This document shows positions 7,531-30,760 of a stretch of 64,000 bases of DNA, piece after piece (the first letter of the stretch is position 1; the number at the start of each line of letters is the position of its first letter). The stretch lies in assembly GCF_024752305.1 (NCBI RefSeq), contig NZ_JANTHX010000007.1, forward strand, positions 402,306 to 466,305. The letters are read 5' to 3'. The stretch is from Protaetiibacter mangrovi. GTDB taxonomy: Bacteria > Actinomycetota > Actinomycetes > Actinomycetales > Microbacteriaceae. Under the pieces are notes generated by a model, which worked only from the letters and a program-made list of their open reading frames with translations, was not told the DNA's origin and did not search any database. Made by a program: the position numbers and the translations under genes.

Positions 7531-7544
7531 TGAAACCTTCTTTC

Positions 7545-7564
7545 TCCGCAGGCCATTCTGCGGA
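7545..7564. promoter_or_regulatory. 7-bp perfect inverted repeat in the SBP leader
   Basis: TCCGCAG, six bases (gccatt), then CTGCGGA. It lies just downstream of the proposed promoter (7581-7609) and upstream of the SBP Shine-Dalgarno. It could be an operator or an mRNA hairpin. Its half-sites share CGCAG/CTGCG with the ArsR-associated repeat at 363-389 but with a different spacing. Confidence 0.35.
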
Positions 7565-7580
7565 AGGGGCAAGTACCGCT

Positions 7581-7609
7581 ATCGCATCACCCCATGTTCC
7601 ATAAGTCAA
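7581..7609 (-). promoter_or_regulatory. Putative sigma-A promoter of the ABC/UbiD operon
   Basis: Read on the minus strand: -35 TTGACT (7604-7609), 17-bp spacer, -10 TGCGAT (7581-7586). It points to the SBP start at 7530. A CAAATTTG palindrome (7620-7627) lies just upstream of the -35, and GCAAATTT is repeated at 7619 and 7646, so an activator or repressor could bind there. Confidence 0.4.
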
Positions 7610-7658
7610 GCAATCATGGCAAATTTGTTTCCAAGAGGAGGTGAAGCAAATTTCGCTG

Positions 7659-8552
7659 TCATCGCTCCGGCTTGTCGGAATCCTCGCCGGAGAGCACGAA
7701 GAGCCCCCACCGATCCATCGACTTCATGAGCCGGTCGTAGCGCGTCATCGAGTCGCCGAGAGCCGCCATCGTCCCGTTCAGCAGCACGTTGAGCACCGCC
7801 ACCGGCGCCACGAGCGAATTCTGCGTGCCCATCCCGCTCACCCGCGTCGGCAGCACGACGTCGACCCGCTGGCCGACGGGCGAGATCGGCGTGTCCGTGA
7901 GCCCGACCAGCTTCATCTTGCGCTCGCGGGCGAGTTCGAGGATCTGGATGGTGTCCGCACTGTACGGCGCGAAGCCGATCACCAGCAGGGCGTCGTCCTC
8001 CGTGGCGGAGAAGAGCGCCGGCACCTGCCTGCCCCCGAGGTTCTCCAGCAGATAGGCCTGGCCCCGGATGCGCTCGAGGGTGAGCGCCGCGTAGGCGGCC
8101 AGCGCGCCCGACGCGTAGCCGCCCGCCACGAAGACGGAGCGCGCCGAGGCGAGGATCGCCACCGCCTCGTCGAGCCGCTCCGGCTCGAGCGCCGCGATCG
8201 TCTTGCGCAGGTTCTCGAGGTCGTGGAGCAGCGAGGCGGCGTGACCACCCGCTTCGAGATGCTCCGCCAGTCCCTCATCGCCGTCGGACCCCGTCGCCTT
8301 GCCCCGGATGTGGCCGCGCACGACCTGGCGCACCTGCTCCTGGAGATCCGGATAGCCGTTGAGCCCCAGCTTGTAGGCGAAGCGGACGACGGTCGAGGGC
8401 GCAACGGAGAGACGCTCCGAGAGCTTGTCGACCGTGGCGAAGGCCACGAACTCCGGGTCTTCGACGATCGCCTCGGCGATGCGCTTCTGCGAATGGGTGA
8501 GCTCATCGTACTTCTTGCGCACCGCGCTCAGGACGTCCTGCGAGGCATCCAT
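7659..8552 (-). CDS. MurR/RpiR-family transcriptional regulator
   Basis: Regulator of 297 aa from ATG 8552, which has GGAGG upstream. The N-terminal HTH_6 domain (about residues 1-80) contains LSERLSVAPSTVVRFAYKLGLNGYPDLQ. The C-terminal SIS domain (about 120-265) contains FVAGGYASGALAAYAALTL and ALLVIGFAPYSADT. The family usually senses phosphosugars, but several members control other catabolic operons. It is divergent from the luciferase-like gene at 8732 and just downstream of the ABC/ubiD promoter region. The repeat at 8642-8664 is a likely binding site; a related sequence lies at 20150-20173. Confidence 0.9.
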   Translation of the reverse strand: MDASQDVLSAVRKKYDELTHSQKRIAEAIVEDPEFVAFATVDKLSERLSVAPSTVVRFAYKLGLNGYPDLQEQVRQVVRGHIRGKATGSDGDEGLAEHLEAGGHAASLLHDLENLRKTIAALEPERLDEAVAILASARSVFVAGGYASGALAAYAALTLERIRGQAYLLENLGGRQVPALFSATEDDALLVIGFAPYSADTIQILELARERKMKLVGLTDTPISPVGQRVDVVLPTRVSGMGTQNSLVAPVAVLNVLLNGTMAALGDSMTRYDRLMKSMDRWGLFVLSGEDSDKPER

Positions 8553-8641
8553 GTCGACCTCCGGTTCCGGCGACCGTCGGGCCGCACCGCAGTTGAGAGT
8601 AGTGGAACACTCGCTCCCATCGTTCAACTGAAACGGTCATC

Positions 8642-8664
8642 TTGCAACAACAATGTTTGTTTCA
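8642..8664. promoter_or_regulatory. Imperfect palindrome in the RpiR/LLM divergent region
   Basis: The sequence begins TTGCAACAACAA and ends TTTGTTTCA, with partial dyad symmetry (AACAA/TTTGTT). An outlying TGAAAC at 8629-8634 mirrors GTTTCA at 8659-8664. It sits in the 179-bp gap between the divergent regulator and luciferase-like genes. A similar sequence (TTGCAGCAACAA...GTTGCTGTCA) is at 20150-20173, and TTTGTTTC recurs at 7624-7631. Confidence 0.35.
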
Positions 8665-8731
8665 TTCTCTGGCCACTCCTGCAGCGCCCTGCTAGGGTCG
8701 ACCCGATCGCATCGACGAGGAGCATCCATCC

Positions 8732-9661
8732 ATGGCACGTGAGCTGACGCGCGTAGGTGACATGACGTTCGGCGTCATTCTTCCCAACAAGGGGCGCGGA
8801 TCCGGACCCGAACATCTGGACGCGGTGGCCTCGGTCGCCACCGAGCTGGGCTGGCGCAGCGGATGGGTCACCGACCACCTCATGGTGCCGGACGGCCCCG
8901 AGGCTGACGAATACGGGTGGATGCTCGAGGCGCTCACGACCATCGCCTGGGTCGGGGGTCGCCACGAGGATCTCGTGCTGGGGACGAGCGTCGTCTCCCC
9001 GGCGATGCGCGACGCGCCGATGCTCGCCAAGGAGCTCGCAACCCTCGACGTGCTGCTGGGCGGGCGCCTCATCGTCGGCGTCGGCGTGAGCGACACCGAC
9101 GACCTGCCCGAGTACCGCAACATGGGCAAAGAGGACAGGTTCCGGGTGCGCGGGCGCTACGTCGACGAGTCGATGCGCCTGTGGCGGCACCTCTGGTCGG
9201 GCAGCACCGAGCCGTTCCACGGGGAGTTCCACACCCTCGAGGACTTCACCTTCGCCCCCCTGCCGACCCGAGACATCCCGATCTGGGCAGGCGGGCGCAG
9301 CGCCCGCGCCCTCCGCCGCACCGCGGAGTTCGGAGACGGCTACCACGCCGCCCAGACAGGTCCCGCCGATCTCGAGGAGCGGTTGCCGCAGCTGCGCGAG
9401 GCCATGGCCCTCACCGGCCGCGCCTTCCCGTTCGTGTCGACGCGGGCGCGCGTGAAGTTCCAGGCCGCGCCGAGCGCCACCTATTCCATCCACGGCGACC
9501 CGGAGGCCATGATCGGCGAGGTGCTGCGCTTCGCAGCCGTCGGCAACGACGAGCTGATCCTCGTGTTCGAGGGGCACGACCCCGATGAGTTCGCCGCGAA
9601 CGCACGCCGCTTCGACCGCGAGGTGATCCGGCCCGCGGCCGAGCGCGCCGCAGGCCGATGA
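8732..9661 (+). CDS. LLM-class flavin-dependent oxidoreductase
   Basis: Luciferase-like monooxygenase/F420-dependent oxidoreductase family, 309 aa, a single TIM-barrel domain. Markers are FGVILPNKGRG at the start, WVTDHLMVPDG, LVLGTSVVSPAMRDAPMLAKELATLDVLLGGR, VGVGVSDTDD and PIWAGGRS. Whether it uses FMN or F420 cannot be decided by eye; the fgd gene nearby makes F420 reasonable. The ATG at 8732 has GAGGAG about ten bases upstream; an internal ATG at 8762 is also possible. The stop overlaps the next gene (ATGA), so it works with the MmgE/PrpD-like protein. Confidence 0.85.
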   Translation: MARELTRVGDMTFGVILPNKGRGSGPEHLDAVASVATELGWRSGWVTDHLMVPDGPEADEYGWMLEALTTIAWVGGRHEDLVLGTSVVSPAMRDAPMLAKELATLDVLLGGRLIVGVGVSDTDDLPEYRNMGKEDRFRVRGRYVDESMRLWRHLWSGSTEPFHGEFHTLEDFTFAPLPTRDIPIWAGGRSARALRRTAEFGDGYHAAQTGPADLEERLPQLREAMALTGRAFPFVSTRARVKFQAAPSATYSIHGDPEAMIGEVLRFAAVGNDELILVFEGHDPDEFAANARRFDREVIRPAAERAAGR

Positions 9662-10938
9662 CGACCACCGCGACGCGTCTCGCGGAGTTCGCCGTCGGCA
9701 CCACGTGGTCCGGCATCCCCGTGGCCGCGCAGGACGCCGCGCGACATCTGCTCGTGGACGCGATCGCGTGCGCGATCGCGGGGCGCGACGCGCCCGCACG
9801 CGCGGACTTCGCGCAGGCGGCACGCGGCCTCGGTGCGGGACGCGCGCTCGTCGTCTCCGATCCGGAGGGCGCCGGACGTGCCGCCGCCGCCCTGCTCAAC
9901 GCCTGGCAGGCGACGGCGACCACCATGTGCGACGTCTTCCGCCCCCGCATGTGCCACGTCTCCCCGCCGCTGCTCGGCGCGGCGCTCGCGACGACCGCGG
10001 ACGACACCGCCGTCGAGGAGGTCCTCCGGGCGGTCGCGATCGGCGCCGAGGTCACGGTGCGGCTCTGCGAGGCGATGGACGAGGGCTGGTACCGGGGCGC
10101 CCGCTGGCACGCCCCGGGCGTCGTGGGCCCGTTCGGGGCCGCGACGACCGCCGGCCTGCTGTCCGGCCTCGACGCCGAGACGCTCGAGCGCACGTGGGGT
10201 CTCGCCCTGCTGCAGTCGGCGGGCACCTTCGCGGCGATCGGCTCCCCCGGGGTCAAGTTCACGCAGGCGCGCGCCGCCCTCGCGGGGGTCCTCGCGGTCG
10301 ACATGACGCGGGCGGGGCTGGGCGGCCAACTCGATCCTCTCGAACATCCGGACGGCGGCCTGCTGATCGCCTACGGCGGCGCGGATGCCGACGCCGTGCT
10401 GCGCGGAATCGGCGACGACTGGCGCCTGCACGGCATCGCGCTGCGCCGCTGGCCGGCGGCGAGCTCGCTGCAGTCGGTCATCGAGGCGGTGCTCGCGCTC
10501 CGCCGCTCCGGCTCACCCGAACGGATCGTCGTCGAGCTCCCCCCGCAGTCCTTCGCGCTGTGCGCCGACAAGGGCTGGCCCGATCAACTCACCGCGCTGC
10601 AGTCGGCGCGCTGGGTGGCGGCCACCGTCTGGCGGGTCGGCGACTGCCGACTGAGCGACTTCTCGCCGGAGTCGCTCCTCGACTCCGAGACGGCGGGGCT
10701 CGCTGGTCGAGTCGAGGTGCGGGAGGATGTGGCCCTCGGCGACGGCGCCGCGCGCGTGCTCGTCGACGGCGCCGCGCGCGAGGTGGCCGTCGCGCTCGGC
10801 ACCCCCGCCCGTCCACTCGACGCCGCGGCCGTCGAGGAGAAGCTCGTGCGCACAGCGGGCGACGCACGGGCCGCGCGGCTGCTCGCCGCGCTCGACGACG
10901 CGGATGCCCGCGCCCTGCGGGACGCGCTGCGCGGCTGA
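9658..10938 (+). CDS. MmgE/PrpD-family protein
   Basis: Family of dehydratases/isomerases acting on polycarboxylates (2-methylcitrate dehydratase PrpD, cis-aconitate decarboxylase, iminodisuccinate epimerase). It is 426 aa. The helical N-terminal domain contains LLVDAIACAIAGRD and LNAWQATATTMCDVFRPRMCHVSPP, and the smaller C-terminal domain starts near residue 250. The family length is normally 440-500, so this is slightly short but ends cleanly. It overlaps the luciferase-like gene by ATGA and converges on the MFS gene with only 7 bp between stops. The substrate is unknown. Confidence 0.85.
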   Translation: MTTTATRLAEFAVGTTWSGIPVAAQDAARHLLVDAIACAIAGRDAPARADFAQAARGLGAGRALVVSDPEGAGRAAAALLNAWQATATTMCDVFRPRMCHVSPPLLGAALATTADDTAVEEVLRAVAIGAEVTVRLCEAMDEGWYRGARWHAPGVVGPFGAATTAGLLSGLDAETLERTWGLALLQSAGTFAAIGSPGVKFTQARAALAGVLAVDMTRAGLGGQLDPLEHPDGGLLIAYGGADADAVLRGIGDDWRLHGIALRRWPAASSLQSVIEAVLALRRSGSPERIVVELPPQSFALCADKGWPDQLTALQSARWVAATVWRVGDCRLSDFSPESLLDSETAGLAGRVEVREDVALGDGAARVLVDGAAREVAVALGTPARPLDAAAVEEKLVRTAGDARAARLLAALDDADARALRDALRG

Positions 10939-10945: not shown

Positions 10946-12193
10946 TCAGGGGCGGATGGCCTCGGGCGAGAGCCCATCCCGTGAGCGCGCGAGCCACAGG
11001 GCGAACGCCGCGGCGCCGAGCGCCAGGATCCCGGACATCACCAGGAACGCCGCCTGCGGCCCGAGGCGATCCGACACGGAGCCGTCGATGAGGGCGGCGA
11101 TCGGACGCCCCCCGATGAACCCCATCGTCCACAGGGCCATGACCCGCCCGCGGAGCCCGTCGTCGAGCAGCTCGAGCAGGCTCGTGGAGACATCCGAACT
11201 CGCCGCCAGGTAGCCCATGCCCGAGACCACGATGACGCCGAGCGCCACCCCCGCGACGGGCGCCGCAGCCACCCCGACGAACCCGACCACCACGAGCGCC
11301 AGGCCCGTGACGCACGTCCACCCCGGGCCGAGCCACCGGCGCATCCGACCCACGAACGGCGCCATCAGCAGGGACCCCATGCCGAACGCCGTCACGAGCA
11401 GTCCGGCGTTCTCGGATCCGAGCCCCAGATGCTCGGCGAGCGACGGGCCGAGGGTGATCGCCGGGTCGGTCGCCATCCCGACCACCAGCGCGAGCAGCAG
11501 GAGGCCAACGAGCCCGGGGTTGTGCATCACGTGCCGCACCCCGCCCAGGACACCGCCCTGGCCCGAGCTCCGGGCGCGCCCGACGGGACGGATCACGGCG
11601 AGCACGATCGCGTAGGCGGCGAAGCTCACGGCGTTCGCGCTGAAGGCGAGGCCGGGCCCGCCGAGCGCGACGAGTCCCGCGCCGAGCGCCGGACCGATCC
11701 CCCGGGCGAGGTTGAAGGTCAACGACTGGAACGCCGATGCCTGCGCGAGATCCGCCGGGGGGACGAGCGCGGGAAGCAGCGCCTGCATCGTCGGGGTGCT
11801 GAGCGCCCGGCCGACGCCCAGCACGAAGGTCACGGCGAGCAGCAGCGCGACATCCCGGGCGCCGAGCAGGACGGCGATCGCGAGCGAGCTCGCGGCGACC
11901 GCCATGACGGAGGAGATCACCAGCAGCAGCACGCGCCGGTCGAAGCGATCCGCAAGCTGACCGCCGAGCGGGGCGAGCACGATCGAGACGCCGAATCCGG
12001 CGACCGACACGAGCGCCACCATCGACGAGAGCCCGGTGATCTGGAACACGAACACCACCGCGGCGATGTCATGGCACCAGGTTCCGATGTTGGAGGCCAG
12101 GCTGCCGGCGAAGTACGGCCCGAAGCTCCGGTCGGCGAAGAGTCTCCACACCGAGCGCCGCTCCGGCCGCGGCGCGGGATCCTCCGCCGTCAT
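10946..12193 (-). CDS. MFS transporter, 12-TM (EntS/MFS_3-like)
   Basis: Major facilitator membrane transporter, 415 aa with about 12 hydrophobic helices. The inter-helix loop motif GGQLADRFDRRVLL follows TM2, and there is a second-half equivalent, PFVGRMRRWLG. The start at 12193 overlaps the DUF35 gene stop (ATGA). It is the final gene of the operon from 20111. The MFS_3-like subgroup is mostly exporters, so it may expel a toxic intermediate or take up the operon's substrate. The direction is not readable from sequence. Confidence 0.88.
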   Translation of the reverse strand: MTAEDPAPRPERRSVWRLFADRSFGPYFAGSLASNIGTWCHDIAAVVFVFQITGLSSMVALVSVAGFGVSIVLAPLGGQLADRFDRRVLLLVISSVMAVAASSLAIAVLLGARDVALLLAVTFVLGVGRALSTPTMQALLPALVPPADLAQASAFQSLTFNLARGIGPALGAGLVALGGPGLAFSANAVSFAAYAIVLAVIRPVGRARSSGQGGVLGGVRHVMHNPGLVGLLLLALVVGMATDPAITLGPSLAEHLGLGSENAGLLVTAFGMGSLLMAPFVGRMRRWLGPGWTCVTGLALVVVGFVGVAAAPVAGVALGVIVVSGMGYLAASSDVSTSLLELLDDGLRGRVMALWTMGFIGGRPIAALIDGSVSDRLGPQAAFLVMSGILALGAAAFALWLARSRDGLSPEAIRP

Positions 12194-12591
12194 CCGGCGA
12201 CGCGGAACCGCGGGATCGTGACCTCGCCCTCCGGATCGAACGCGACCTCCACCGCATCGCCCACCGCGAAGTCCTCGCCCGTGAGCGGGAGCACGTTGCT
12301 GATCATGCGCGGCCCCTCCTCGAGCTGGACGAGCACGACGTTGTAGGGCAGGCGGTCCTTCCAGGCCGGGTGGTAGCTCTGGTGGAACACCAGCTTGGAC
12401 AGCACCGTGCCGCGGCCGGACAACGCCTGCCACTCCCAGCGTTCGTCGAGGCACACGGGGCACCACGGCGCGAGCGGATAGCGGAGGTGATCGCAGGCGA
12501 GGCAGCGCTGCACACGCAGTTCGCCCGCCGCGGCGCCCTCCCAGAAGCCGCGGTTGTTGTCGGTGACGACGGGTCGGATGAGATCGGTCAT
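12190..12591 (-). CDS. DUF35 OB-fold zinc-ribbon acyl-CoA-associated protein
   Basis: Small partner of thiolase-fold enzymes, 133 aa. A rubredoxin-like zinc ribbon with Cys30, Cys33, Cys44 and Cys47 (CxxC-x10-CxxC) is followed by an OB fold (WQALSGRGTVLSKLVFHQ and the following residues). Proteins of this family bind CoA or acyl-CoA and pair with non-condensing thiolases. In steroid side-chain degradation the DUF35 domain of ChsH2 activates the aldolase Ltp2. The gene lies one base downstream of the thiolase-like gene, consistent with a stoichiometric complex. Confidence 0.9.
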   Translation of the reverse strand: MTDLIRPVVTDNNRGFWEGAAAGELRVQRCLACDHLRYPLAPWCPVCLDERWEWQALSGRGTVLSKLVFHQSYHPAWKDRLPYNVVLVQLEEGPRMISNVLPLTGEDFAVGDAVEVAFDPEGEVTIPRFRVAG

Positions 12592-12592
12592 G

Positions 12593-13732
12593 TCAGCGCC
12601 CCAGGACGAGTGCGGCGGAGGTGTTGAGGGTCATGCCGCGCCCGGTCACGAGGGTGACCTCCGCTCCCGGCACCTGCCGCGGCCCGCATTCACCGCGCAT
12701 CTGGCGCACGCCTTCGACGACGTGCAACCAGCCCTGCATGTACGACTCGGAGAGGTTGCCGCCGGCCGTGTTGACGGGCAGCTCCCCTCCGAGCGTGATC
12801 CGTTCGCCGCCCTCGACGAACGGACCGGCCTCGCCCGGCTTCACGAAGCCCGCGTGCTCCAACCAGAGCAGCACCGAGATGGTGAAGTTGTCGTAGAGCT
12901 GGGCGACGTCGATGTCCGTCGGGCCGACGCCGGCCATCCGGTAGGCGTCGAAGATCGCCTCCCGCTGGTGCGGCATGTACCACCAGTCCTCCTTCTCGAG
13001 CTTCTGCAACGAGTGGGCCTGGCCCATGCCCATGATCCGCACCGGATGGGTCGCGTTGTCGCGCGCGCGCTCGGGGCTCGTGACGATGATCGCGACGGCG
13101 CCGTCGCTGATGAGGCAGCAGTCGAGCAGGTGCAGGGGGTCGACGATCATCCGGGAGTTCTGATGGTCCTCGATCGTGAAGGGCTCGCGCATGATGGCGT
13201 TCGGGTTGAGCGCGGCGTGCTTGCGCATCGTCACCCCCACCCAGCCGAGCTGCTCGCTCGTGGTGCCGTAGACGGCCATGTGGCGGCTCGCGGCGATCGC
13301 GCTGTTCGCGGCGTTGCCGAACATGCCCCAGATCCCCCAGGAGTCGTCGTCGCCCGCGGCCGCACCGAAGCGGCTGCCTCCGGTCTTCGCCGCGTCGCCG
13401 AACACGACGGCGACCGTGGAGGCCATGCCCGCCTCGATCGCGAGCGCCGCCTGGGTGACGAGCGTGCCGACGGTCGCGCCGCCCATGCTGATGCTCCACG
13501 CGATCCGCGGATTGATCCCGAGCAGTTCGCCGAGCGCCAGATAGTGCTTCGCGCCCTCGGGCGAGGTGGTGCCGGGCATCGTGATGAGGCCGTCGATCTC
13601 GTCCTTCGGGATGCCCGCGTCGCCGAGGGCGTTCACGAACGCCTCCTTGGCGAGCTGATTGGAGGTCACACCGGGGAACTTGCCCATGCGGCTCGTCCCG
13701 ACCCCCGTGATGGCGGCCTTGTCCCAGCTCAT
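12593..13732 (-). CDS. Thiolase-fold protein lacking catalytic Cys, Ltp2-like aldolase candidate
   Basis: Thiolase superfamily (lipid-transfer/SCP2-like branch), 379 aa. The nucleophilic Cys region of true thiolases reads WSISMGGATVG (residues 79-89) with no Cys, and the usual GHP motif is replaced by GGNLSESYMQGW (325-336). It should therefore not act as a Claisen thiolase. Tyr280 (QLYDNFT) and Tyr331 (LSESYM) stand where, as I recall, Ltp2-type retro-aldolases carry their catalytic tyrosines. With its DUF35 neighbour and the enoyl-CoA hydratase upstream, a retro-aldol cleavage of a beta-hydroxyacyl-CoA to an acyl-CoA plus aldehyde or ketone is the best inference. Confidence 0.88.
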   Translation of the reverse strand: MSWDKAAITGVGTSRMGKFPGVTSNQLAKEAFVNALGDAGIPKDEIDGLITMPGTTSPEGAKHYLALGELLGINPRIAWSISMGGATVGTLVTQAALAIEAGMASTVAVVFGDAAKTGGSRFGAAAGDDDSWGIWGMFGNAANSAIAASRHMAVYGTTSEQLGWVGVTMRKHAALNPNAIMREPFTIEDHQNSRMIVDPLHLLDCCLISDGAVAIIVTSPERARDNATHPVRIMGMGQAHSLQKLEKEDWWYMPHQREAIFDAYRMAGVGPTDIDVAQLYDNFTISVLLWLEHAGFVKPGEAGPFVEGGERITLGGELPVNTAGGNLSESYMQGWLHVVEGVRQMRGECGPRQVPGAEVTLVTGRGMTLNTSAALVLGR

Positions 13733-13755
13733 CGATCGTCACCCATCCGTTCCGA

Positions 13756-14514
13756 CTACCTTCCTTCGAATCTCGGCGGGCGCTTCTCGCGGAACGCGGC
13801 GCGTCCCTCCGCCCGGTCGTAGGTCTCCGCGAGCTCCGCCCACAGCCGGCGTTCGAGCTCGATGCCCGGGCCGATCGCGTCGAGAGCGGCACGCGCCGCG
13901 CGCTTGGCCGCGACGAGCGAGAGGGGCGCGGCTTCCGCGATGCGCTCGGCGAGCTCGGCGACACGCTCGGCGAACTCGTCCTCGGCGAAGACGTCGCTCA
14001 CGAGTCCGTACCGGAGCGCCGTCTCGGCGTCGATCGGCGCGCCCGTGAAGAGGGCCTTCGCCGCCACGGCCGAGGGCAATGCGTGGAAGATGCGCTGGGT
14101 GCCGCCGCTCCCGGGGAGACTGCCGATCCTCACCTCCGGCAGGAGGAACTTCGCGCGCGGGGTCGCCACCCGCAGGTCCGCGGCGAGGGCGAATTCGAAG
14201 CCGCCGCCCGCCGCGCCGCCGTCGACCGCCGCGATGAGGGGCTTCGTGAAGTCGTCGAGCGGCTGCGCGAGGCGCTGCGGGTTCACGAGGAGCGGATGCG
14301 CCGGGTCCTGCGGACCGGTCAGGTCCGTTCCGGCGCAGAACACGCCACCCGCGCCGGTCAGCACGGCGACGCGCACCTCGGGATCCGCGTCGAGTGCCGC
14401 GAACGCCTGAGCGAGCTCGAGGCGTGCATCGAGGTCGAGGGCGTTGCGCTGCGCGGGACGGTCGAGCACCACCCATCCGACCTGACCGTGCACCGACCAC
14501 GTCACGCCGGCCAT
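13756..14514 (-). CDS. Enoyl-CoA hydratase/isomerase family protein
   Basis: Crotonase-fold enzyme of 252 aa. The oxyanion-hole segments are GAGGVFCAGTDL (about residue 55-65) and DGGAAGGGFEFALAADLRVA (about 98-117), followed by LPEVRIGSLPGSGGTQR. Glu residues at the usual hydratase positions are only partly conserved: the ALAADLRVA-FLLPEV region has Glu, so hydratase activity is plausible. The start at 14514 overlaps the CoA-transferase stop by one base (TGATG). In this operon it would hydrate an enoyl-CoA to the beta-hydroxyacyl-CoA used by the thiolase-fold aldolase. Confidence 0.9.
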   Translation of the reverse strand: MAGVTWSVHGQVGWVVLDRPAQRNALDLDARLELAQAFAALDADPEVRVAVLTGAGGVFCAGTDLTGPQDPAHPLLVNPQRLAQPLDDFTKPLIAAVDGGAAGGGFEFALAADLRVATPRAKFLLPEVRIGSLPGSGGTQRIFHALPSAVAAKALFTGAPIDAETALRYGLVSDVFAEDEFAERVAELAERIAEAAPLSLVAAKRAARAALDAIGPGIELERRLWAELAETYDRAEGRAAFREKRPPRFEGR

Positions 14515-15719
14515 CAGTAGAGCACCTTCTCGTCGACGAGACGTGCGATCTCGGCCGCGTCGAGCCCGAGTTCGGCGGCGAGCACCTCGGCCGTGTCCTC
14601 GCCGAGCAGCGGCGGGCGGGTGACCTGCGCCTCGGGCCCGTCGATCAGCCGGAACGGACTGCGGTTGATCGGGATCCGTCCGATCACCGGGTGCTCGACG
14701 TCGCGCCAGAACCCCCGCTCCCACAGCACCTTCTCCTCCACGATGTCGCGGGAGGAGTTGACGGGGGCGTGCGGCACGCCCGCGCGGGTGAGCAGGGCGA
14801 TCGCGGCGCCGCGGTCGTGGCGGGCAACCGCGGCGGCCACGAGGGCGTCGACCGCGCCCTCCTCCGACGCGCGCGCCGCGGCGACCGCGAAGCGCGCGGG
14901 GGCCGCGAATCCGAGGGCGTCGACGAGCGACGCCCAGTGGGCGTCGCGCCGGCAGGAGACGACGATCCACGCTCCGTCTCGGCAGACGTAGGCACCGTGG
15001 GGGGCCACCCCCGGCACGCGATTGCCGACCGGCTCCGGCTGCCGGCCGAGACCGGCCTCGACGAAGGCGGGTCCGAGCACGTTGACCGTCGACTCGAGCT
15101 GGGACAGCTCGATCTGCTGGCCCTCGCCGGTGCGCCGACGGTGGCGGATGGCCGCGAGCACCGCCACGAGGGCATGACCCGGGTTGGGCACGTGGTCGGG
15201 GAAATGGGTTCCGGTGCCGACCGGCGCGCGACCGGGCACCCCCGACAGCGCGACCAGCCCCGACAGGGCGGCGATCGTCGAGCCGAAGCCGATGTAGCTC
15301 GCGTGCGGCCCCTCGGCGCCCTGCATCGGCATCGTGAGCGAGATGAGCGCGGGGTTCGTCTCGCGCAGCTGCGCGTAGCCCATCCCCCAGCGCTCCATGA
15401 TCCCCGGGCGGAAGTTGCTGCTGACCATGTCGACGCCCTCGGCGAGGCGACGTGCGAGGGCACGTCCCTCCGCGGTCTGCATGTTGAGGGCCACGGACCG
15501 TTTGCTCGAGTTCCGGCTCGCGAAGTACCCCGAGGCCTCGATCCCCTCCGTGCCCGGACGGAACGGCGGCGAGAGCCGCAGGTTGTCGGGGTGGGTTCTG
15601 GATTCGACACGGTAGACGGACGCGCCGAGCTCGGCGAGCGTCTTCGTCACGAGCGCCCCGGCGCCGATCCAGCAGAAGTCGAGGATGCGGAACCCCTCGA
15701 GCGGCCGCCCCGCCGTCAT
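14514..15719 (-). CDS. Class III (CaiB/BaiF) CoA-transferase, catalytic subunit
   Basis: Transfers CoA between carboxylic acids through an aspartyl-CoA anhydride. It is 401 aa, typical of the family, with N-terminal RILDFCWIGAGALVTKTLAELGA, the SNFRPG motif near 101-106, and RRRTGEGQQIELSQLE. The candidate nucleophile is Asp175 in HFPDHVPNPGHA, 28 residues before the IELS strand as expected. The start overlaps the second CoA-transferase gene by ATGA. The two subunits probably form a heterodimer like the benzylsuccinate or phthalate CoA-transferases, activating the operon's substrate. Confidence 0.9.
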   Translation of the reverse strand: MTAGRPLEGFRILDFCWIGAGALVTKTLAELGASVYRVESRTHPDNLRLSPPFRPGTEGIEASGYFASRNSSKRSVALNMQTAEGRALARRLAEGVDMVSSNFRPGIMERWGMGYAQLRETNPALISLTMPMQGAEGPHASYIGFGSTIAALSGLVALSGVPGRAPVGTGTHFPDHVPNPGHALVAVLAAIRHRRRTGEGQQIELSQLESTVNVLGPAFVEAGLGRQPEPVGNRVPGVAPHGAYVCRDGAWIVVSCRRDAHWASLVDALGFAAPARFAVAAARASEEGAVDALVAAAVARHDRGAAIALLTRAGVPHAPVNSSRDIVEEKVLWERGFWRDVEHPVIGRIPINRSPFRLIDGPEAQVTRPPLLGEDTAEVLAAELGLDAAEIARLVDEKVLY

Positions 15720-16915
15720 CGCACGCCCTCCTCGACCCGCGCCCCGAAGAGCTCGGGGTCCGCTTCGCCGAGGGCCGGGGCCGGGCGCGGATCGGCGGCG
15801 GGCGTCGCCGAGAGCCGATACGGCGCGCGCGGGAAGCGGATGCTGCCCACGCGGGCGTCCGCGACGTCGACGAAGAAGTCGCGCGACGCGAGCTGCACGT
15901 CGGCGAGCACATCCCCGACGGTGGCGACCGGCGAGAGCGCGATCATCCGCGCCTGCGCGTCGCGATAGAGGTCCTGCTTGCCGCGCTGCGCGGTGAACGC
16001 GGCGAACAGCTGGCCGAAGCGATCGATGGCCTCGTCGCTCTGCCGGTATTCGAAGCTCGACCACCGCGGGTCGAGCAGTTCCGTCGCATCCGGGCTGCCG
16101 CACTCGACCATCCAGCCGACCAGATTCGACCAGGCACGCGCGGTGCCGAGGCGCCCGGCGATCATGGAGACGTAGCCGTCGCGGCAGGGGTAGACGCCGC
16201 TGCCCGCCTCCCGCGGCCGGTCGCCTTGACGTTCTCGTACCGTGCCGGTGAGCGCGTAGGTCACGGCACTGTCCTCGAGCGCCTGGGCGACGCACTCCTG
16301 TGCCGACACGTCGTAGCTGGATCCACCGCCGCCGCCCTCGGCGTCGAGCAGCGCGGCGAGCGCGGCGACGGCGCCGAAGATCGAGGCGGCGAAGCGGCTC
16401 AACCCACCGTAGGCGGCGACCGGCCCGAGGTCCGGATATCCGCCCAGGTGCAGCAGCCCCCCCGCGGCCATCAGGACGAGATCGTCGGTGTCGGTCCACG
16501 GGGCGGGGTGCTCGAGACCGAACGGCGTCACCACGACATGGCCGATTCCGGGATGGAGCCGCCGGAGCTCGACGTCGTCGATTCCCAGCTGAGCGAGCAC
16601 GGGGCCGGGACTCTCGATCACGAGATCCGCGGTCGCGAGCAGGTCCCGGAGCTCGTCGACGCCCTCGGGCTGGGCCGTGTCGATCACGAGGGAGCGCTTG
16701 CCGGCGCTGACGAACCGCTCGAAGGCGCTCACCCCGCCCTCCGGCCACCCGATCAGGGGTTCCGCAGTGCGCGTGGTGGCTCCGCCCGGCGGCTCCACGC
16801 GGATGACCTCCGCGCCGAGATCCGCGAGCAGGCGGCCCGCGTAGGCGGCCAGCTCGTCGCCGAGGTCGACGACGCGGACGCCGTCGAGAGCGGCGGGAGG
16901 GCGGACGGATCCCAT
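15716..16915 (-). CDS. Class III CoA-transferase family subunit, probably non-catalytic
   Basis: CaiB/BaiF-family protein of 399 aa from ATG 16915 (a GTG at 16921 is an alternative that would overlap the ALDH stop). N-terminal VRVVDLGDELAAYAGRLLADLGAEVIRVEPP is typical. Aligning its YDVS strand (201-204) with IELS of the partner places Ser173, not Asp, at the nucleophile position. The normally basic RxRTGxGQ segment has become a poly-Gly stretch (DAEGGGGGSS). It is therefore likely a structural or regulatory half of a heterodimer with the adjacent 401-aa subunit. It might instead have another function. Confidence 0.87.
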   Translation of the reverse strand: MGSVRPPAALDGVRVVDLGDELAAYAGRLLADLGAEVIRVEPPGGATTRTAEPLIGWPEGGVSAFERFVSAGKRSLVIDTAQPEGVDELRDLLATADLVIESPGPVLAQLGIDDVELRRLHPGIGHVVVTPFGLEHPAPWTDTDDLVLMAAGGLLHLGGYPDLGPVAAYGGLSRFAASIFGAVAALAALLDAEGGGGGSSYDVSAQECVAQALEDSAVTYALTGTVRERQGDRPREAGSGVYPCRDGYVSMIAGRLGTARAWSNLVGWMVECGSPDATELLDPRWSSFEYRQSDEAIDRFGQLFAAFTAQRGKQDLYRDAQARMIALSPVATVGDVLADVQLASRDFFVDVADARVGSIRFPRAPYRLSATPAADPRPAPALGEADPELFGARVEEGVR

Positions 16916-16917
16916 CG

Positions 16918-18345
16918 TCACGACCTCGGGGTGATGATGAGCGAGCGCAGCTCGGTCATGTGCTCGATGGCGTAGCGGATGCCCTCGCGCCCCATGCCGG
17001 AGTCCTTGACCCCGCCGTACGGCATGTGGTCGATCCGGTAGGTGGGCACGTCGCCGATGACGACACCGCCGACCTCGAGGTCGTCGAACGCCTCCCAGAG
17101 GGTCGCGAGGTCCGAGGTGAAGACGCCGGCCTGCAGGCCGTAGTCGCTCGCGTTGACGCGGGCGATCGCCTCCGACAGCTCGTCGAAGGGCTCCACCACC
17201 ACCACAGGCGCGAAGGCCTCCTCGCGGGCGAGGCGGACGCCGCCGGGGACGCCGGTGAGCACGGTCGGGCGGACGTACGCGCCGTCGCGGGTCCCCCCGG
17301 TGAGCAGCCGCGCCCCGGCGGCGACCGCCTCGTCGACGAGTTCGAGGGTGCGGGCCGCCGCCGCGTCGGAGATCATCGGGCCGAGGTCCACGCCCTGCTC
17401 GAGCGGGGGTCCCACCCGGAGCGCCTCGGCGCCCTCGACCAGGCGGCGCTGCAACTCGTCCGCGAGCGAGCGATGCGCGAAGACCCGCTGGACGCTGATG
17501 CAGATCTGCCCGGCGTACTTGAACGATCCGACGAGGAGGCGCGGTACCACGAGGTCGAGATCGGCGTCGGCCGCGACGATCACGGCGCCGTCGCCGCCGA
17601 GCTCCAGCACCACGTTCTTGGAGCCGGCGCGCGCGCGCATGTCCCACCCGACGCGTGCCGAGCCCGTGAACGACAGCAGCTTGAACCGGGGATCGGTGAC
17701 GAGAGAATCGCCGACCTCGATGTCCATCGGCAGCACGCTCACCGCCCCCTCGGGCAGACCCGCCTCGTCGATGAGACGCGCGAGGTGCAGCAGCGTGAGG
17801 GCGACGCGCGAGTCCGGCTTCAGCACGATGGTGTCGCCGGATGCGATGGCCGGCGCGAGCTTGTGCGCGGCGAGGCTGAGCGGCACGTTGAACGGGCTGA
17901 TGCCGGCGACCGGCCCGAGCGGCACGCGCCGGGTGATCGCGAACTTGCCGCGCGAGCTCGCGATCAGATCCAGGGGCACGAGCTCCCCGCGGATGCGCTC
18001 CGCCTCTTCCGCGGCGTGCCGGAAGAGGAAGGAGGTGCGGTCGACCTCGACGAGCGCGTCGGCGAGCGGCTTGCCCGCCTCCCGCGCGAGGGAGGTGCCG
18101 AGCTCCTCGCGCTCGCGCGCGATCCCCTCCGCGATGCGACGCAGGGCGGCGCTGCGCTCGAAGGACGCGAGCCGACGGGTGCTCTCGAACGCGGTCACCG
18201 CGGCCGCGGTGGCGCGCTCGAGCTGCTCGGCGGTGGCTCGGAAGGTCCGCCCGATCTCCTCGCCCGTGCCGGGGGCGATGGAGATCAGCTCGAGCGGCGA
18301 CTCCTCCCACCGACCCGCGACGTAGATCGGCTGGCTGTCGCTCAC
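16918..18345 (-). CDS. NAD(P)-dependent aldehyde dehydrogenase
   Basis: Oxidises an aldehyde to a carboxylic acid. It is 475 aa with Asn153 (SPFNVPL), Lys176 (LKPDS), Glu248 in VLELGGD, catalytic Cys282 in GQICISVQRV, and C-terminal PYGGVKDSG. It resembles the lactaldehyde/glyceraldehyde-3-phosphate non-phosphorylating branch rather than benzaldehyde dehydrogenases, but I cannot assign a substrate. GTG start 18345 overlaps the ThDP-enzyme stop (GTGA). It could take the aldehyde made by the ThDP enzyme (decarboxylation) or by the thiolase-fold aldolase (retro-aldol). Confidence 0.93.
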   Translation of the reverse strand: MSDSQPIYVAGRWEESPLELISIAPGTGEEIGRTFRATAEQLERATAAAVTAFESTRRLASFERSAALRRIAEGIAREREELGTSLAREAGKPLADALVEVDRTSFLFRHAAEEAERIRGELVPLDLIASSRGKFAITRRVPLGPVAGISPFNVPLSLAAHKLAPAIASGDTIVLKPDSRVALTLLHLARLIDEAGLPEGAVSVLPMDIEVGDSLVTDPRFKLLSFTGSARVGWDMRARAGSKNVVLELGGDGAVIVAADADLDLVVPRLLVGSFKYAGQICISVQRVFAHRSLADELQRRLVEGAEALRVGPPLEQGVDLGPMISDAAAARTLELVDEAVAAGARLLTGGTRDGAYVRPTVLTGVPGGVRLAREEAFAPVVVVEPFDELSEAIARVNASDYGLQAGVFTSDLATLWEAFDDLEVGGVVIGDVPTYRIDHMPYGGVKDSGMGREGIRYAIEHMTELRSLIITPRS

Positions 18346-20111
18346 GGCGTCTCCAGCTGCCCCTGTGCGCCGTAGCCCGCATACCAGTTGTCGGGGTACG
18401 CGCGGTCGAGTCCGGTGGTGAAGTAGGTCGGCACGTCGGGGTCGGTGTCGACGTCGATCACGTACGGCCGGCCGGAGGCGATGCCGCGGTCGAGTGCCGC
18501 CGCCAGATCCGACGCCTTCTCGACCCGCTCGCCGTCGGCGCCGAAGGCGCGGGCCAGCGCCACGAAGTCGGGGTTGTAGGGCTCGCCGTCGGGCGTGCGG
18601 AAGAAGATCCACGGGTGGTTGCGGCCGAACGCCCGCCCCGCGCCCTTCTTCTCGATGCCGAGCTCCTTGTTGTTGATGATGACCCAGACCGTGGGCAGGC
18701 CGTACTCGATCGCCGTCGCGAGCACCTGCGGACCCATGAGGAACGCGCCGTCGCCGGTGAGGGCGATGGGCACGAGACCCGGCTTGGCGACCGCGGCGCC
18801 CGGGGCACCCTCGCTCGCCCAGCCCATCTCGGCCATGCCCGAGCTGATGTGCCAACTGCCGGGTCGGGTGATCTGCAGATACGGCTCCGCGTACTGGTCG
18901 ATGTCGCCGATGTCGACGAACAGGTGGGTGTTCTCGTGGCGCTTGAGCGCCTCGCCCACCTCGTGGCTGAGGCGCCCGGGGTGGATCCGGTCGAAGTCGC
19001 CCGTGATCACCCGCTCGACCTCGCCCGCCCAGGTCTGCTTGAACTCGGCGACCTGCTGCCGCCATCCGTCGATCGCGAGCGCCTCCCCGCCGAGTGCCGC
19101 ACCGAGGTCGGTGAGGAAGCCGCCGGCGTCGGCCTGGAGCCCCAGGGTGACGTCGTAGTTGCGGCCGATCTCCTCGATGGCGAGGTCGACCTGGATGATC
19201 TTGGTCTCCTCGGTGTCGTAGATCGCGCCCTTGCGCCAGTTGCCGGCGTTGTTGTCGCTGAACCGCGCACCGAGGGCGACGATGAGGTCGGCGCCGCGAG
19301 TGGCATCCGCCGCGGCCCAGGTGCCGGAGCGTCCGACGGGGCCGACCGCGAGCTCGTGGGTCTCGTCGAGCATGCCCTTCGCGGGGACGGTCGTCGCGAC
19401 GGGCACCCGGTAGGTCTCGGTGAACGCGGCGAGCGCATCCGCGCCGCCCTTCGAGCGCACCAGCCCGCCGCCCGCGAGGATCACCGGGCGCTTCGCCGCG
19501 CGCACCAGCGCGGCCGCCTCGTCGAGCGCCGCGGCGTCGACGCGCGACCCGGTGCGCACCTCGCGCGACGAGGGCGGGATGATCGCGCCCTCGACGACGC
19601 TGTTCTGGATGTCGGTGGGCAGCTGCACGAACACGGGTCCGGGTCGCCCGCTGACCGCCAGCTTGTAGGCCTGGTTGAGCGTGTCGATCACCGTGTCGGG
19701 GCGGATGACCATCCAGGCGCCCTTGGTGAGCGGGCGCATCACGCTCACCGCGTCCTCGTGGCCGTGGTAGTACATCTCCTGCATGCCGGCCTTGCCCATG
19801 AAGTGGGTCGCCGTGCCGCCCGCGATGACGAGCAGCGGAACGGAGTCGTGCATGGCGCTCGCGACGCCGCCGACGGCGTTCATGAGGCCTGGGCCCTTGG
19901 TGACGATGACCGGGGCGATGCGACCGGTCTCGCGGAAGTAGATGTCGGCCTGGTGCACGGCGTGCGACTCGTGCTTGGCCTGGATCCCCTTGATCTCGGG
20001 GTGGTCGATCAGGCCGTCCATGATGGGCCAGATCGCACCGCCTGCGTATCCGAAATAGTGGGTGATCCCCGCGGCGGCGAACCAGTCCGCGAGCGCATCG
20101 ACTACGCGCAT
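18342..20111 (-). CDS. ThDP-dependent enzyme, acetolactate synthase-like
   Basis: Thiamine-diphosphate enzyme of 589 aa with three domains: Pyr (about 1-175), central (about 195-330) and PP (about 390-560). Catalytic Glu48 is in KHESHA, and the cofactor motif runs from GDGAFLMG to IINNKE. FGYAGGAIWPIMDGL and ALGARFSDNNAGN resemble acetolactate synthase large subunits, but there is no regulatory-subunit gene and the neighbours are catabolic. Decarboxylation of a 2-oxo acid, carboligation, or 2-hydroxyacyl-CoA lyase-type cleavage are all possible. A strong AAAGGAGG precedes the ATG at 20111. It is first in the operon that ends with the MFS gene. Confidence 0.9.
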   Translation of the reverse strand: MRVVDALADWFAAAGITHYFGYAGGAIWPIMDGLIDHPEIKGIQAKHESHAVHQADIYFRETGRIAPVIVTKGPGLMNAVGGVASAMHDSVPLLVIAGGTATHFMGKAGMQEMYYHGHEDAVSVMRPLTKGAWMVIRPDTVIDTLNQAYKLAVSGRPGPVFVQLPTDIQNSVVEGAIIPPSSREVRTGSRVDAAALDEAAALVRAAKRPVILAGGGLVRSKGGADALAAFTETYRVPVATTVPAKGMLDETHELAVGPVGRSGTWAAADATRGADLIVALGARFSDNNAGNWRKGAIYDTEETKIIQVDLAIEEIGRNYDVTLGLQADAGGFLTDLGAALGGEALAIDGWRQQVAEFKQTWAGEVERVITGDFDRIHPGRLSHEVGEALKRHENTHLFVDIGDIDQYAEPYLQITRPGSWHISSGMAEMGWASEGAPGAAVAKPGLVPIALTGDGAFLMGPQVLATAIEYGLPTVWVIINNKELGIEKKGAGRAFGRNHPWIFFRTPDGEPYNPDFVALARAFGADGERVEKASDLAAALDRGIASGRPYVIDVDTDPDVPTYFTTGLDRAYPDNWYAGYGAQGQLETP

Positions 20112-20347: not shown

Positions 20348-21511
20348 ATGCAGGCAATCCATTCATCCACGTCATCCACCCCTCGGGTCCGTCGAAAGCG
20401 ACTCAGGGTCGCGGCGATCGCGACCGTCGGGGTGGTGGCAGCGGCGCTCGCCGGTTGCAGCACCACCGGCGACGGCGGCGACGGCGGCGGCTCTTCCGGC
20501 GGGTCGGCGCTCAGCACCTACGACAAGTTCGCCGCGATGAGCGGGCAGGAACGACACGACGCGCTCGTCGCCGCCGCGCAGGAGGAGGGCGTCGTGGTCT
20601 TCTACTCGACGGCACCCGGCTGGCAGCCCGTGCTCGACGCGTTCAGCGACGCCTACGACATCGACGTCGAGGTCTTCAACGGACGCTCCGAGACGATCCT
20701 GCAGCGCGTCGTGCAGGAGTACCAGGCGGGCCTCAACGCCGTCGACGTCTTCGAGGACGAGAACGCCGCGCTGCTGTCCAAGGAGGACGGCATCACCGCC
20801 CCCTACGTGAACGACGAGCTCACCTCGCAGATCCCCACCTTCAGCACCGACAACGACATGGTGCCGTTCCGGCTCTCCGTGCCGGTCGTCGCCTGGAACA
20901 CCGACCTGGTGTCGGATGACGAGGTCCCCGACACGATCGAGGGCCTCGCCGATCCGCAGTGGAAGGGCAAACTGACGATGGATGCCGGCGCATGGACCTG
21001 GTACATGGCGATCCACGACTACCTCGCCGACAAGGGCTGGGACGACGACCGCATCCAGGAGTTCTTCGAGACCCTGGTGTCGTACTCGAGCCCGCAGGCC
21101 TCGTCCATCGCGATGACCGAGTTGCTCTCGGCGGGCGAATACGCGGCAGGCACCTCGGTGCTGACGCAGGTGATCGACCGCACCGCGGCGAAGGGCGCCC
21201 CGATCGCCTGGCGCACCGCGGACGGCGACTACGTCAAGCCGCTCGTGGTGCAGCCCGAGGGCGGCGTGCTCATGGCCAACGCGCCGCACCCCGCCGCGGC
21301 GCTGCTGCTGGTCGACTTCATCCTCTCCGATGGCGCGCAGGTCCTGCACGACAACAAGACCTTCATCAACACCGCCATCCCGATCGAGGGCGGCCCGCTC
21401 ACCGGCGTCGCCGAGGACGACTTCATCTACCTCGACACCAACGCGCTCATGGATGAGGCCACCCGCTCGAAGTGGTCGGACGCGTACGACGCGCTGATCC
21501 GGGGGCAGTGA
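20348..21511 (+). CDS. ABC substrate-binding lipoprotein, AfuA/FbpA-like
   Basis: Solute receptor of 387 aa. A long basic N-terminus leads to the hydrophobic VAAIATVGVVAAALAGC with lipidated Cys37 and a Gly/Ser linker. The mature domain (EEGVVVFYSTAPGWQPVLDAF and on) is the iron(III)/spermidine/putrescine-type class. The iron-coordinating Tyr pair of FbpA is not clearly present, so the ligand may be an organic acid rather than Fe3+. The start is fixed by AAGGAGG five bases upstream of ATG 20348. It is first gene of the operon ending at 27192 and divergent from the ThDP operon. Confidence 0.9.
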   Translation: MQAIHSSTSSTPRVRRKRLRVAAIATVGVVAAALAGCSTTGDGGDGGGSSGGSALSTYDKFAAMSGQERHDALVAAAQEEGVVVFYSTAPGWQPVLDAFSDAYDIDVEVFNGRSETILQRVVQEYQAGLNAVDVFEDENAALLSKEDGITAPYVNDELTSQIPTFSTDNDMVPFRLSVPVVAWNTDLVSDDEVPDTIEGLADPQWKGKLTMDAGAWTWYMAIHDYLADKGWDDDRIQEFFETLVSYSSPQASSIAMTELLSAGEYAAGTSVLTQVIDRTAAKGAPIAWRTADGDYVKPLVVQPEGGVLMANAPHPAAALLLVDFILSDGAQVLHDNKTFINTAIPIEGGPLTGVAEDDFIYLDTNALMDEATRSKWSDAYDALIRGQ

Positions 21512-21591
21512 CCCACCGCGGCGCCGGGACGGCCCACCCGGTCCCGGCGCCGCACCCGTCATCCGAGCCGACCCCGTCCTGAGAGCGAGTC

Positions 21592-23313
21592 ATGCTGCAG
21601 CAGCGATACACCGAGGAGCGTTCCGCGGGCCAGCTGGTCCGCCGCGTCCTGTCCCCGAAGAACGTGATCGTCTTCCTGGCGATCCTCATCATCGGCTACC
21701 TCGTCCTGACGCCGGCGATCTACCTGTTCATCGCCACCTTCTTCTCGGGCGGCGCCTTCACCCTCGACGCGTTCCGTCGGGCCTACGGCACCTCCGGGCT
21801 CGACTCGATGGTGCTGAGCTCCATCGTCTTCACGGTCGGCGCCACGGTTCTCGCCCTCGCGCTCGGCACCGCGCTGGCCTACATCACGGTGCGCACGAAC
21901 GTGCCGTTCCGCTCGCTCATCGTCGCGACCTCGCTCGTGCCGCTCATCGTGCCCGGTCTGCTCTACACGATCGCCTGGGTGATGGTCGCGAGCCCCAACG
22001 TCGGCATCGCCAACCAGATCGGGAACGCCCTGACGGGCGGGCCCTGGTTCGACATCTTCTCCATGCCGGGGATGATCTGGGTCGAGGGCACCCACAACGT
22101 GCCGCTCGTCTACCTCTTCATGTTCGTCGCGTTCCGGGCGATGGACCCGTCGCTCGAGGAGTCGGCGCTCGTCAACGGCGCCACCCGGGCCACCATGCTC
22201 CGCCGCATCACCATCCCGCTCATGCGCCCAGCGCTCGCCGCGGCGGCCCTCGTGGTGGGCGTCAAGACCCTCGGTTCGTTCGAGGTCCCGACCCTGCTCG
22301 GCGTCCCCGGCGGCATCTTCGTCTTCGTCTCGCGGATCTACTACGTCATGTCCGACTTCCCCTACGACACCGCCGCCGCCGGCGCGCTCTCGATCGGTCT
22401 GGTCGTGCTCGCGATCCTCGGCACCTGGGCCCTCAACCGGATGCAGGGCGACGGCAAGCAGTACGCGACCGTGACCGGCAAGGGCTTCCGCCCGGCCGCG
22501 CTCGACCTCGGACGGTGGAAGTGGCCGGTGGCCATCGGGGTGCTCGTCTACTTCCTGGTGACGACGGCGCTCCCGCTGTTCGTGATGGCCTACAACTCGC
22601 TGCTCCCGCACTTCCAGGCGATCAGCATCCGCGCGATGTCCGAGTTCACCCTGCAGAACTACGTGGACCTGTTCGAGAACCCGATCTTCGCGCGGTCCGT
22701 CGGCAACTCCCTGCTCCTCGCCGTCGGTACGGCCACCGCGATCATGGTGCTCACCGCGGTCGCGGCCTGGGTGGTCGTCCGCGGCCGTCGGCGATCCCGC
22801 AAGCTGGTCGACCAGCTCACCTTCATCCCGATGGTGTTCCCGGGCCTCGTCATCGGTCTCGCCGTCTCGTTCGTGTACCTGCGCAACCCGCTGCCCATCG
22901 CGGTGTACGGCACCCTCCTCATCCTGCTGATCGCCTACATGACGAACTTCCTGCCCTACGGCATGCGGTACGCGATGTCGTCGCTGCAGCAGATCTCCGC
23001 CGAACTCGAGGAGTCGTCCGCCGTCGCCGGCGCGAGCTGGTGGCAGACCTGGACCCGGATCGTGCTGCCGCTCATGTTCCCGGGACTGATGGCGGGCTGG
23101 ATCTACCTGCTCATCGTGGCCGTCCGCGAGCTGGGGTCGTCGATCCTGCTCTACAGCCCCGGCAACGAGGTGATCGCGGTGCTCATCTTCCAGATGTACG
23201 AGGAGGGCGAGCTCGTCGACATCTCGGCGCTGGGCGTCGTGCTCGTCGTCTTCCTGTCCCTCATCGTCGCGCTCGTGCACAAGTTCGGCTCGCGCGTCGG
23301 CATCCGCCTGTGA
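21592..23313 (+). CDS. ABC transporter permease, two fused FbpB-type domains
   Basis: Membrane channel of 573 aa, two permease units fused in tandem with about 12 helices. Each half carries an EAA loop: LEESALVNGATRATMLRRITIPLMRPAL (about residues 185-212) and LEESSAVAGASWWQTWTRIVLPLMFPGL (about 475-502). Such fused permeases are usual in iron(III)- and 2-aminoethylphosphonate-type importers. It lies 80 bp after the binding-protein gene and 35 bp before the ATPase gene, within one operon. Confidence 0.92.
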   Translation: MLQQRYTEERSAGQLVRRVLSPKNVIVFLAILIIGYLVLTPAIYLFIATFFSGGAFTLDAFRRAYGTSGLDSMVLSSIVFTVGATVLALALGTALAYITVRTNVPFRSLIVATSLVPLIVPGLLYTIAWVMVASPNVGIANQIGNALTGGPWFDIFSMPGMIWVEGTHNVPLVYLFMFVAFRAMDPSLEESALVNGATRATMLRRITIPLMRPALAAAALVVGVKTLGSFEVPTLLGVPGGIFVFVSRIYYVMSDFPYDTAAAGALSIGLVVLAILGTWALNRMQGDGKQYATVTGKGFRPAALDLGRWKWPVAIGVLVYFLVTTALPLFVMAYNSLLPHFQAISIRAMSEFTLQNYVDLFENPIFARSVGNSLLLAVGTATAIMVLTAVAAWVVVRGRRRSRKLVDQLTFIPMVFPGLVIGLAVSFVYLRNPLPIAVYGTLLILLIAYMTNFLPYGMRYAMSSLQQISAELEESSAVAGASWWQTWTRIVLPLMFPGLMAGWIYLLIVAVRELGSSILLYSPGNEVIAVLIFQMYEEGELVDISALGVVLVVFLSLIVALVHKFGSRVGIRL

Positions 23314-23348
23314 CCCGCTCCCCCGACCTCACCTGGAAAGGCTGATAC

Positions 23349-30759: not shown

Positions 30760-30760
30760 G

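Follow-up and report, generated by a model that had tools for sequence, protein, structure and literature searches.

In the toluene pathway of anaerobic degraders, encoded by the bbs genes (BbsEF, BbsG, BbsH, BbsCD, BbsAB), the two-subunit benzylsuccinate coenzyme A (CoA)-transferase BbsEF draws on succinyl-CoA, and the thiolysis that ends the pathway yields succinyl-CoA again (PMC10818641). The steroid side-chain aldolases, Ltp2-ChsH2 and Sal-Shy, combine a thiolase fold devoid of the nucleophilic Cys with a DUF35 partner. In TcLtp2, Tyr294 of a YDHF motif acts as the base, the His as an oxyanion contact and Tyr344 as the acid, while the motif of Sal (CtSal) reads YDCY, Cys304 is its second catalytic residue and a Gly replaces the thiolase Cys (PMC12329534). 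IpfDE, involved in ibuprofen degradation, is a thiolase-type pair that releases propionyl-CoA (PMC9195938). The window considered here, 64,000 nucleotides of the genome of Protaetiibacter mangrovi (2.98 Mb, 99.7% complete), carries at 10946-20111 an eight-gene operon that joins a thiamine diphosphate (ThDP) enzyme and an aldehyde dehydrogenase (ALDH) to a BbsEF-type transferase, a hydratase and a candidate retro-aldolase. On balance, we take it to encode the breakdown of an organic acid that the cell imports, through known kinds of enzymes in an apparently undescribed combination. A preliminary description of this locus knew of no cluster with such a pairing of ThDP enzyme and CoA-transferase, and no matching cluster was found in the literature searched, most subscription journals lying outside that search.

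All eight genes are on the minus strand and were confirmed at their positions by an open reading frame and Pfam check, which agrees with every family that had been named for them. The operon is indeed tight, with overlaps at four of its seven junctions and short gaps at the other three. Searching the ThDP protein against 84,980 species genomes revealed eight close loci with 58-78% identity: a Microbacteriaceae metagenome-assembled genome (MAG; L007, the nearest in the survey at 78%), an Actinomycetota MAG (L008), Jiangella asiatica (L009), two Acidimicrobiaceae MAGs (L010 and L011), a Chloroflexi MAG (L012), Dactylosporangium (L013) and an entry named only as a bacterium (L014). Genes were called by a simple in-house script, with approximate start positions. 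The ALDH gene adjoins the ThDP gene wherever both sides can be read, namely in eight loci (the window and L007-L013); L014 is cut by a contig end. Both CoA-transferases and the hydratase are found in all relatives except L008, which is truncated; the first CoA-transferase subunit of Jiangella lies farther along the same contig (L035). Because these five genes recur together in relatives from the Actinomycetota and Chloroflexota at this level of ThDP identity, their arrangement is not a matter of chance. The conserved neighborhood also takes in 1405-10938; the interval first reported was right in its genes but too short, and the conserved unit is about twice its length.

The ThDP enzyme forms, by its sequence, a rare clade of its own. 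In the window's family, 1 of 150 sampled genomes carries a ThDP gene at this level besides the window's own, and in a phylum sample of 396 genomes only the window's own was listed. Distant relatives (36-38%) occur in Chloroflexota, where the other core genes were not in the fetched stretches, and plasmids queried with the ThDP and PrpD proteins gave no match. Parts of the operon do travel independently of this enzyme: the CoA-transferase pair, hydratase, thiolase-fold protein (67%) and DUF35 protein are found on plasmid 3 of Variovorax sp. SRS16, and P. caribensis MBA4 has a run of the CoA-transferase pair, thiolase-fold and DUF35 genes, a ThDP gene being part of neither operon.

The two overlapping subunits of the class III CoA-transferase (CaiB1, 15716-16915, and CaiB2, 14514-15719) have chains A and B of benzylsuccinate CoA-transferase (9fn0), respectively, as their best solved relatives. 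CaiB1 matches chain A with 174 bits, compared to 109 for the next match and 51 for chain B, and CaiB2 matches chain B with 286 bits, compared to 182 for the next and 108 for chain A. CaiB2 retains the catalytic Asp175 (FPD175HVP, aligned to TDHV of 9fn0 chain B), whereas CaiB1 has Arg174 at the aligned position. As each subunit matches its BbsEF chain by a wide margin, and one bears the Asp while the other does not, the pair is by sequence a BbsEF-type two-subunit CoA-transferase, with CaiB1 BbsE-like and CaiB2 BbsF-like. The enoyl-CoA hydratase gene (13756-14514; PF00378, 190 bits) overlaps CaiB2, and its product has both catalytic Glu residues (GGFEFALAAD, LPEVRIG).

The transferase, the hydratase and a DUF35/thiolase-fold cutter are shared with bbs. 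Unlike bbs, the cluster lacks benzylsuccinate synthase and BbsG (an acyl-CoA dehydrogenase is not among the genes called in 398-31492), and it adds the ThDP enzyme, ALDH, UbiD, an LLM-class oxidoreductase and MmgE/PrpD. The putative retro-aldolase replaces BbsCD and BbsAB: the BbsCD pair of short-chain dehydrogenases/reductases (SDRs) and the BbsB-type thiolase are absent from the window operon, while BbsB-, BbsC- and BbsD-like proteins are present in the relatives L007 and L014. The overall logic appears nearest to toluene-type (bbs) beta-oxidation minus the acyl-CoA dehydrogenase. The order proposed in the preliminary description, activation, hydration and retro-aldol cleavage, is supported by the BbsEF-type transferase, the two hydratase Glu residues and the paired Tyr with Gly for Cys in the cutter; its likeness to steroid side-chain removal did not hold beyond the cutter. 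A Bbs-like set was also observed on the Rhodococcus opacus plasmid pLPS8 (L019, 11932-17058 and 21753-22952), comprising both CoA-transferase subunits, the hydratase, DUF35, a BbsB-type thiolase and two SDRs, with an ALDH and an SLC13 permease nearby and no acyl-CoA dehydrogenase annotated in the stretch.

The cutter is a thiolase-fold protein (12593-13732) that matches 4u4e with 244 bits and TcLtp2 (6ok1) with 209 bits. Its DUF35 partner, of the ChsH2 type with an OB fold (12190-12591; zf-ChsH2 and OB_ChsH2_C, PF12172 and PF01796 over cut-off), has four zinc-ribbon Cys residues (30, 33, 44 and 47). In the alignment, Gly85 takes the position of the nucleophilic Cys of true thiolases, YDNF stands in place of HDAF, and there is no GHP motif. 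The label "Cys-less" given to this protein is correct in the relevant sense, the remaining Cys205, Cys206 and Cys349 being elsewhere in the chain. Tyr294 and Tyr344 of TcLtp2 are conserved as Tyr280 (in YDNF) and Tyr331, and Tyr280 is invariant in the aldolase-type sequences, including that of Variovorax. An aldolase of this type is found in four cluster members, and the relatives share 72-78% identity with that of the window, more than is seen for the other operon products. These features are as expected for a CoA-dependent retro-aldolase, for which the protein is a candidate. It shares with Ltp2 and Sal the fold, the partner and the Gly at the nucleophile position, but differs in having YDNF instead of YDHF or YDCY and in its hydratase, which is of the crotonase rather than the MaoC type. 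A steroid pathway was considered and rejected, there being no steroid genes among the window genes examined. IpfDE is likewise a thiolase-type enzyme, encoded in a catabolic operon serving the removal of an acyl-CoA side chain; the likeness is one of description. The ibuprofen Ipf pathway differs in its use of ring dioxygenation and a CoA ligase, and we know of no BbsEF-type transferase or ThDP enzyme in it.

In L007, L014 and the Acidimicrobiaceae (L010/L030 and L011/L032), the aldolase is replaced by a thiolase with the nucleophilic Cys, HDAF and GHP. The genomes with this version contain no close aldolase, the best genome match being 39% or less. The thiolase of L014 is closest to BbsB (7pxp, 278 bits), and L007 and L014 both encode a degenerate BbsC-like SDR followed by a full BbsD-like SDR. 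The DUF35 partner was found in L014, where it was read from the translation, and in Acidimicrobiaceae L030; in the Acidimicrobiaceae, the thiolase lies on the same contig nearly 20 kb from the ThDP gene. The window and L007 are nearest neighbors yet differ in their cutter, and considering supported branches, cutter type changes at least twice on the ThDP tree and at least four times on the CoA-transferase tree. Repeated exchange of the cutting module is required by these trees. One and the same 3-hydroxyacyl-CoA, bearing a secondary alcohol, suits either cutter, and the retro-aldol reading draws its strongest support from the fact that the thiolase module and the aldolase swap for one another. 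An itaconate/citramalyl-CoA-type route was rejected, since the SDR/thiolase version could not oxidize a tertiary alcohol. Gene content, synteny, the BbsEF-type pairing, the catalytic residues and the swapping of cutters can all be read from the sequences compared here.

The ThDP enzyme (18342-20111; PF02776/PF00205/PF02775, three TPP domains) shares full-length three-domain homology, the catalytic Glu and the ThDP motif with the acetolactate-synthase superfamily, including acetohydroxyacid synthase (AHAS), glyoxylate carboligase, BbmA, cyclohexane-1,2-dione hydrolase (CDH) and benzaldehyde lyase. Glu48 and GDG(453-455)...N481 are invariant in nine relatives. It differs from acetolactate synthase in scoring 342 bits with the equivalog model TIGR00118, below the cut-off of 538. 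The best solved relative is BbmA (8x3x, titled "ThDP-dependent HKA synthase"), at about 31% identity. In a fold search with an AlphaFold2 model (pLDDT 74), a span of about 2 Z units took in AHAS, oxalyl-CoA decarboxylase, glyoxylate carboligase, pyruvate oxidase, benzaldehyde lyase and CDH.

The adjoining ALDH gene (16918-18345; PF00171, 467 bits) has a GTG start that overlaps the ThDP gene, and its product has LELGG, starting at residue 247, and GQICIS, starting at residue 279, as catalytic motifs. The preliminary description had this enzyme oxidize the aldehyde released by retro-aldol cleavage. In such a scheme, CoA activation, hydration and retro-aldol cleavage come first, and some other product is left to the ThDP enzyme. 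The placement of the ALDH in the same operon fits this scheme, as does the release of an aldehyde or ketone by retro-aldol cleavage in ferulate- and steroid-type pathways, and a single ALDH could serve both steps. Nevertheless, the ALDH also stands beside the ThDP gene in L007, L010 and L011, whose thiolase yields an acyl-CoA and not an aldehyde, and the thiolase-type operon of L014 includes an aldehyde:ferredoxin oxidoreductase (L014:5485-7302). The scheme is not the simplest reading, and we regard it as unlikely. Because the ALDH stays with the ThDP gene whichever cutter is present, it probably serves the ThDP step primarily.

Next to the operon, on the plus strand, are genes for an LLM-class, F420-family-like oxidoreductase (8825-9661; PF00296) and an MmgE/PrpD family enzyme (9658-10938; PF03972), which overlap by 4 bases and are kept side by side in relatives. 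The LLM protein scores 141.6 bits with TIGR03619, under the cut-off of 166.9, and has FGD1 as its nearest solved relative; those of the MmgE/PrpD protein are IRG1-type cis-aconitate decarboxylase and IDS-epimerase. Family models further identify, on the minus strand, an RpiR-type regulator (HTH_6 and SIS, 7659-8552), an NMT1/SsuA-type substrate-binding lipoprotein (6514-7530) and an ABC importer with two permeases and an ATPase (3987-6477). These are followed, on the same strand, by a UbiD-family decarboxylase dependent on prenylated FMN (prFMN; 2447-3949; PF01977 with 202 bits, TIGR00148 over cut-off) and a UbiX-family flavin prenyltransferase (1405-2004; PRK06029 and TIGR00421 over cut-off). 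An F420-dependent glucose-6-phosphate dehydrogenase lies at 398-1345 (606 bits, cut-off 420). Homologs of UbiD and of MmgE/PrpD are each found in six of the eight relative genomes (seven of nine with the window) and are jointly missing from the genomes of L007 and of L008, a small MAG. Most relatives also carry UbiX, an LLM oxidoreductase, an RpiR regulator and an NMT1-type ABC importer, with RpiR homologs in L008, L009, L012, L013, L014, L030 and L032, and NMT1-type binding-protein relatives in L007, L010, L011 and L013. Four relative genomes have a type-2 isopentenyl diphosphate isomerase homolog near UbiD, one of which was confirmed by a model; this position fits a prenyl supply for prFMN.

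This neighborhood bears on a special case of the reading we favor, in which the ThDP enzyme opens a ring by hydrolysis, as CDH does. From an aromatic acid, UbiD and the LLM enzyme would produce a cyclic dione, the ThDP enzyme would convert this into a semialdehyde and the ALDH would yield a dicarboxylate, which the bbs-like part would shorten. CDH is one of the solved relatives (164 bits; Z of about 36, a value that many ThDP enzymes share), UbiD and the LLM enzyme are kept in most clusters, CofD and the F420-dependent dehydrogenase are encoded by the host, and BbsEF-type transferases use dicarboxylates. By sequence, however, AHAS, glyoxylate carboligase and BbmA outscore CDH, CofH was not found in the host genome, and the L007 genome lacks both UbiD and PrpD; we consider this special case rather improbable.

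A biosynthetic role, in secondary metabolism, was also weighed. It would suit an acetolactate-synthase-like ThDP enzyme whose best solved relative is BbmA, the Phl-like fold relatives of the cutter, and the exporter-like MFS protein (10946-12193, overlapping the DUF35 gene; efflux-like MFS_3 by Pfam), which is the least conserved operon member among relatives. The conserved core, however, holds no synthase, carrier protein or ligase, and the presence of importers, a regulator and a neighboring lower pathway for aromatic meta-cleavage speaks for catabolism; we consider biosynthesis very unlikely.

For the catabolic pathway, we infer the order of the steps, the ThDP reaction, the CoA donor and the substrate as follows. 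UbiD/UbiX, the LLM oxidoreductase and MmgE/PrpD would prepare the substrate as an upper module, a status suggested by the absence of UbiD and MmgE/PrpD from L007. The ThDP enzyme would break a C-C bond, by decarboxylation of a 2-oxo acid or cleavage of a cyclic dione or ketol, releasing an aldehyde that the adjoining ALDH would oxidize to an acid. The BbsEF-type transferase would load this acid with CoA, for which succinyl-CoA is the probable donor. Since no acyl-CoA dehydrogenase is encoded, the acid should have its alpha,beta double bond beforehand, unless an enzyme encoded elsewhere introduces it. The hydratase would form a 3-hydroxyacyl-CoA, from which the Ltp2-type retro-aldolase with DUF35 would split off an aldehyde or ketone, leaving a shorter acyl-CoA. 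Were the substrate derived from succinate, as it is for BbsEF, this acyl-CoA would be succinyl-CoA and would re-supply the CoA-transfer step.

Several points weigh against this reading. The oxyanion His of Ltp2 is replaced by Asn282 in the window protein. Tyr331 is kept in four of five aldolase-type sequences, and since the Variovorax SRS16 homolog has a Phe there, the acid role of this position appears not to be strictly fixed. The AlphaFold2 model of the thiolase-fold protein, built from four sequences, was too poor (pLDDT 35) and was not used, and the fold search with the ThDP model cannot separate decarboxylase, carboligase, lyase and ring hydrolase. Retro-aldol cleavage would add another aldehyde to that of the ThDP step, and the operon encodes a single ALDH. 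To our knowledge, none of the enzymes in this clade has had its activity assayed. The residue changes, YDNF for YDHF and the Phe in Variovorax, would also be compatible with the thiolase-fold/DUF35 pair being an acyltransferase or non-catalytic scaffold, as in the Friedel-Crafts complexes of the PhlC/PhlB type, where PhlC-type proteins have the same fold and a DUF35 partner. Yet both TcLtp2 tyrosines are present in all four cluster members, whose cutters are conserved beyond the rest of the operon, and the protein takes the place of a catalytic thiolase module. We judge such a role to be distinctly unlikely.

The locus is a complete, conserved and apparently undescribed catabolic unit, whose CoA-transferase and cutting step are tied to characterized enzyme types. 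It offers a natural experiment, in which relatives with up to 78% ThDP identity cut presumably the same intermediate by different chemistry. More tentatively, one may envisage a pathway across Actinomycetota and Chloroflexota that has repeatedly exchanged retro-aldol and thiolytic cleavage of one 3-hydroxyacyl-CoA and is fed by a ring-opening or 2-oxo-acid-decarboxylating ThDP-ALDH pair. If the reading we favor is right, DUF35/thiolase-fold aldolases would extend beyond steroids and ibuprofen, and pathways annotated merely as "acetyl-CoA acetyltransferase + CoA-transferase" could be re-read.

Other genes flank the cluster. A divergent ABC importer (binding protein, fused permease and ATPase; 20432-24503) adjoins the operon and is kept in Jiangella (L009:3354-7515, 46-62%). 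Further along, 27226-31492 encodes an extradiol (VOC) dioxygenase, a 4-oxalomesaconate tautomerase (over cut-off), a CHA aldolase (over one curated cut-off) and a PIG-L protein, and Dactylosporangium has the same set plus an amidohydrolase (L028:2476-6234); by sequence, this is a lower pathway of the protocatechuate/gallate type. The VOC gene, 77% identical between the two, lies beside the ThDP cluster in both and is absent from the seven other cluster genomes. Finally, a conserved family of proteins of about 330 residues with a weak NMT1 match (L009:7613-8638, L012:20288-21277, L033:10825-11808 and 12936-13955, L035:4033-5013), which may resemble 4,5-dihydroxyphthalate decarboxylases, is found in several copies close to the cluster in Jiangella and Chloroflexi.

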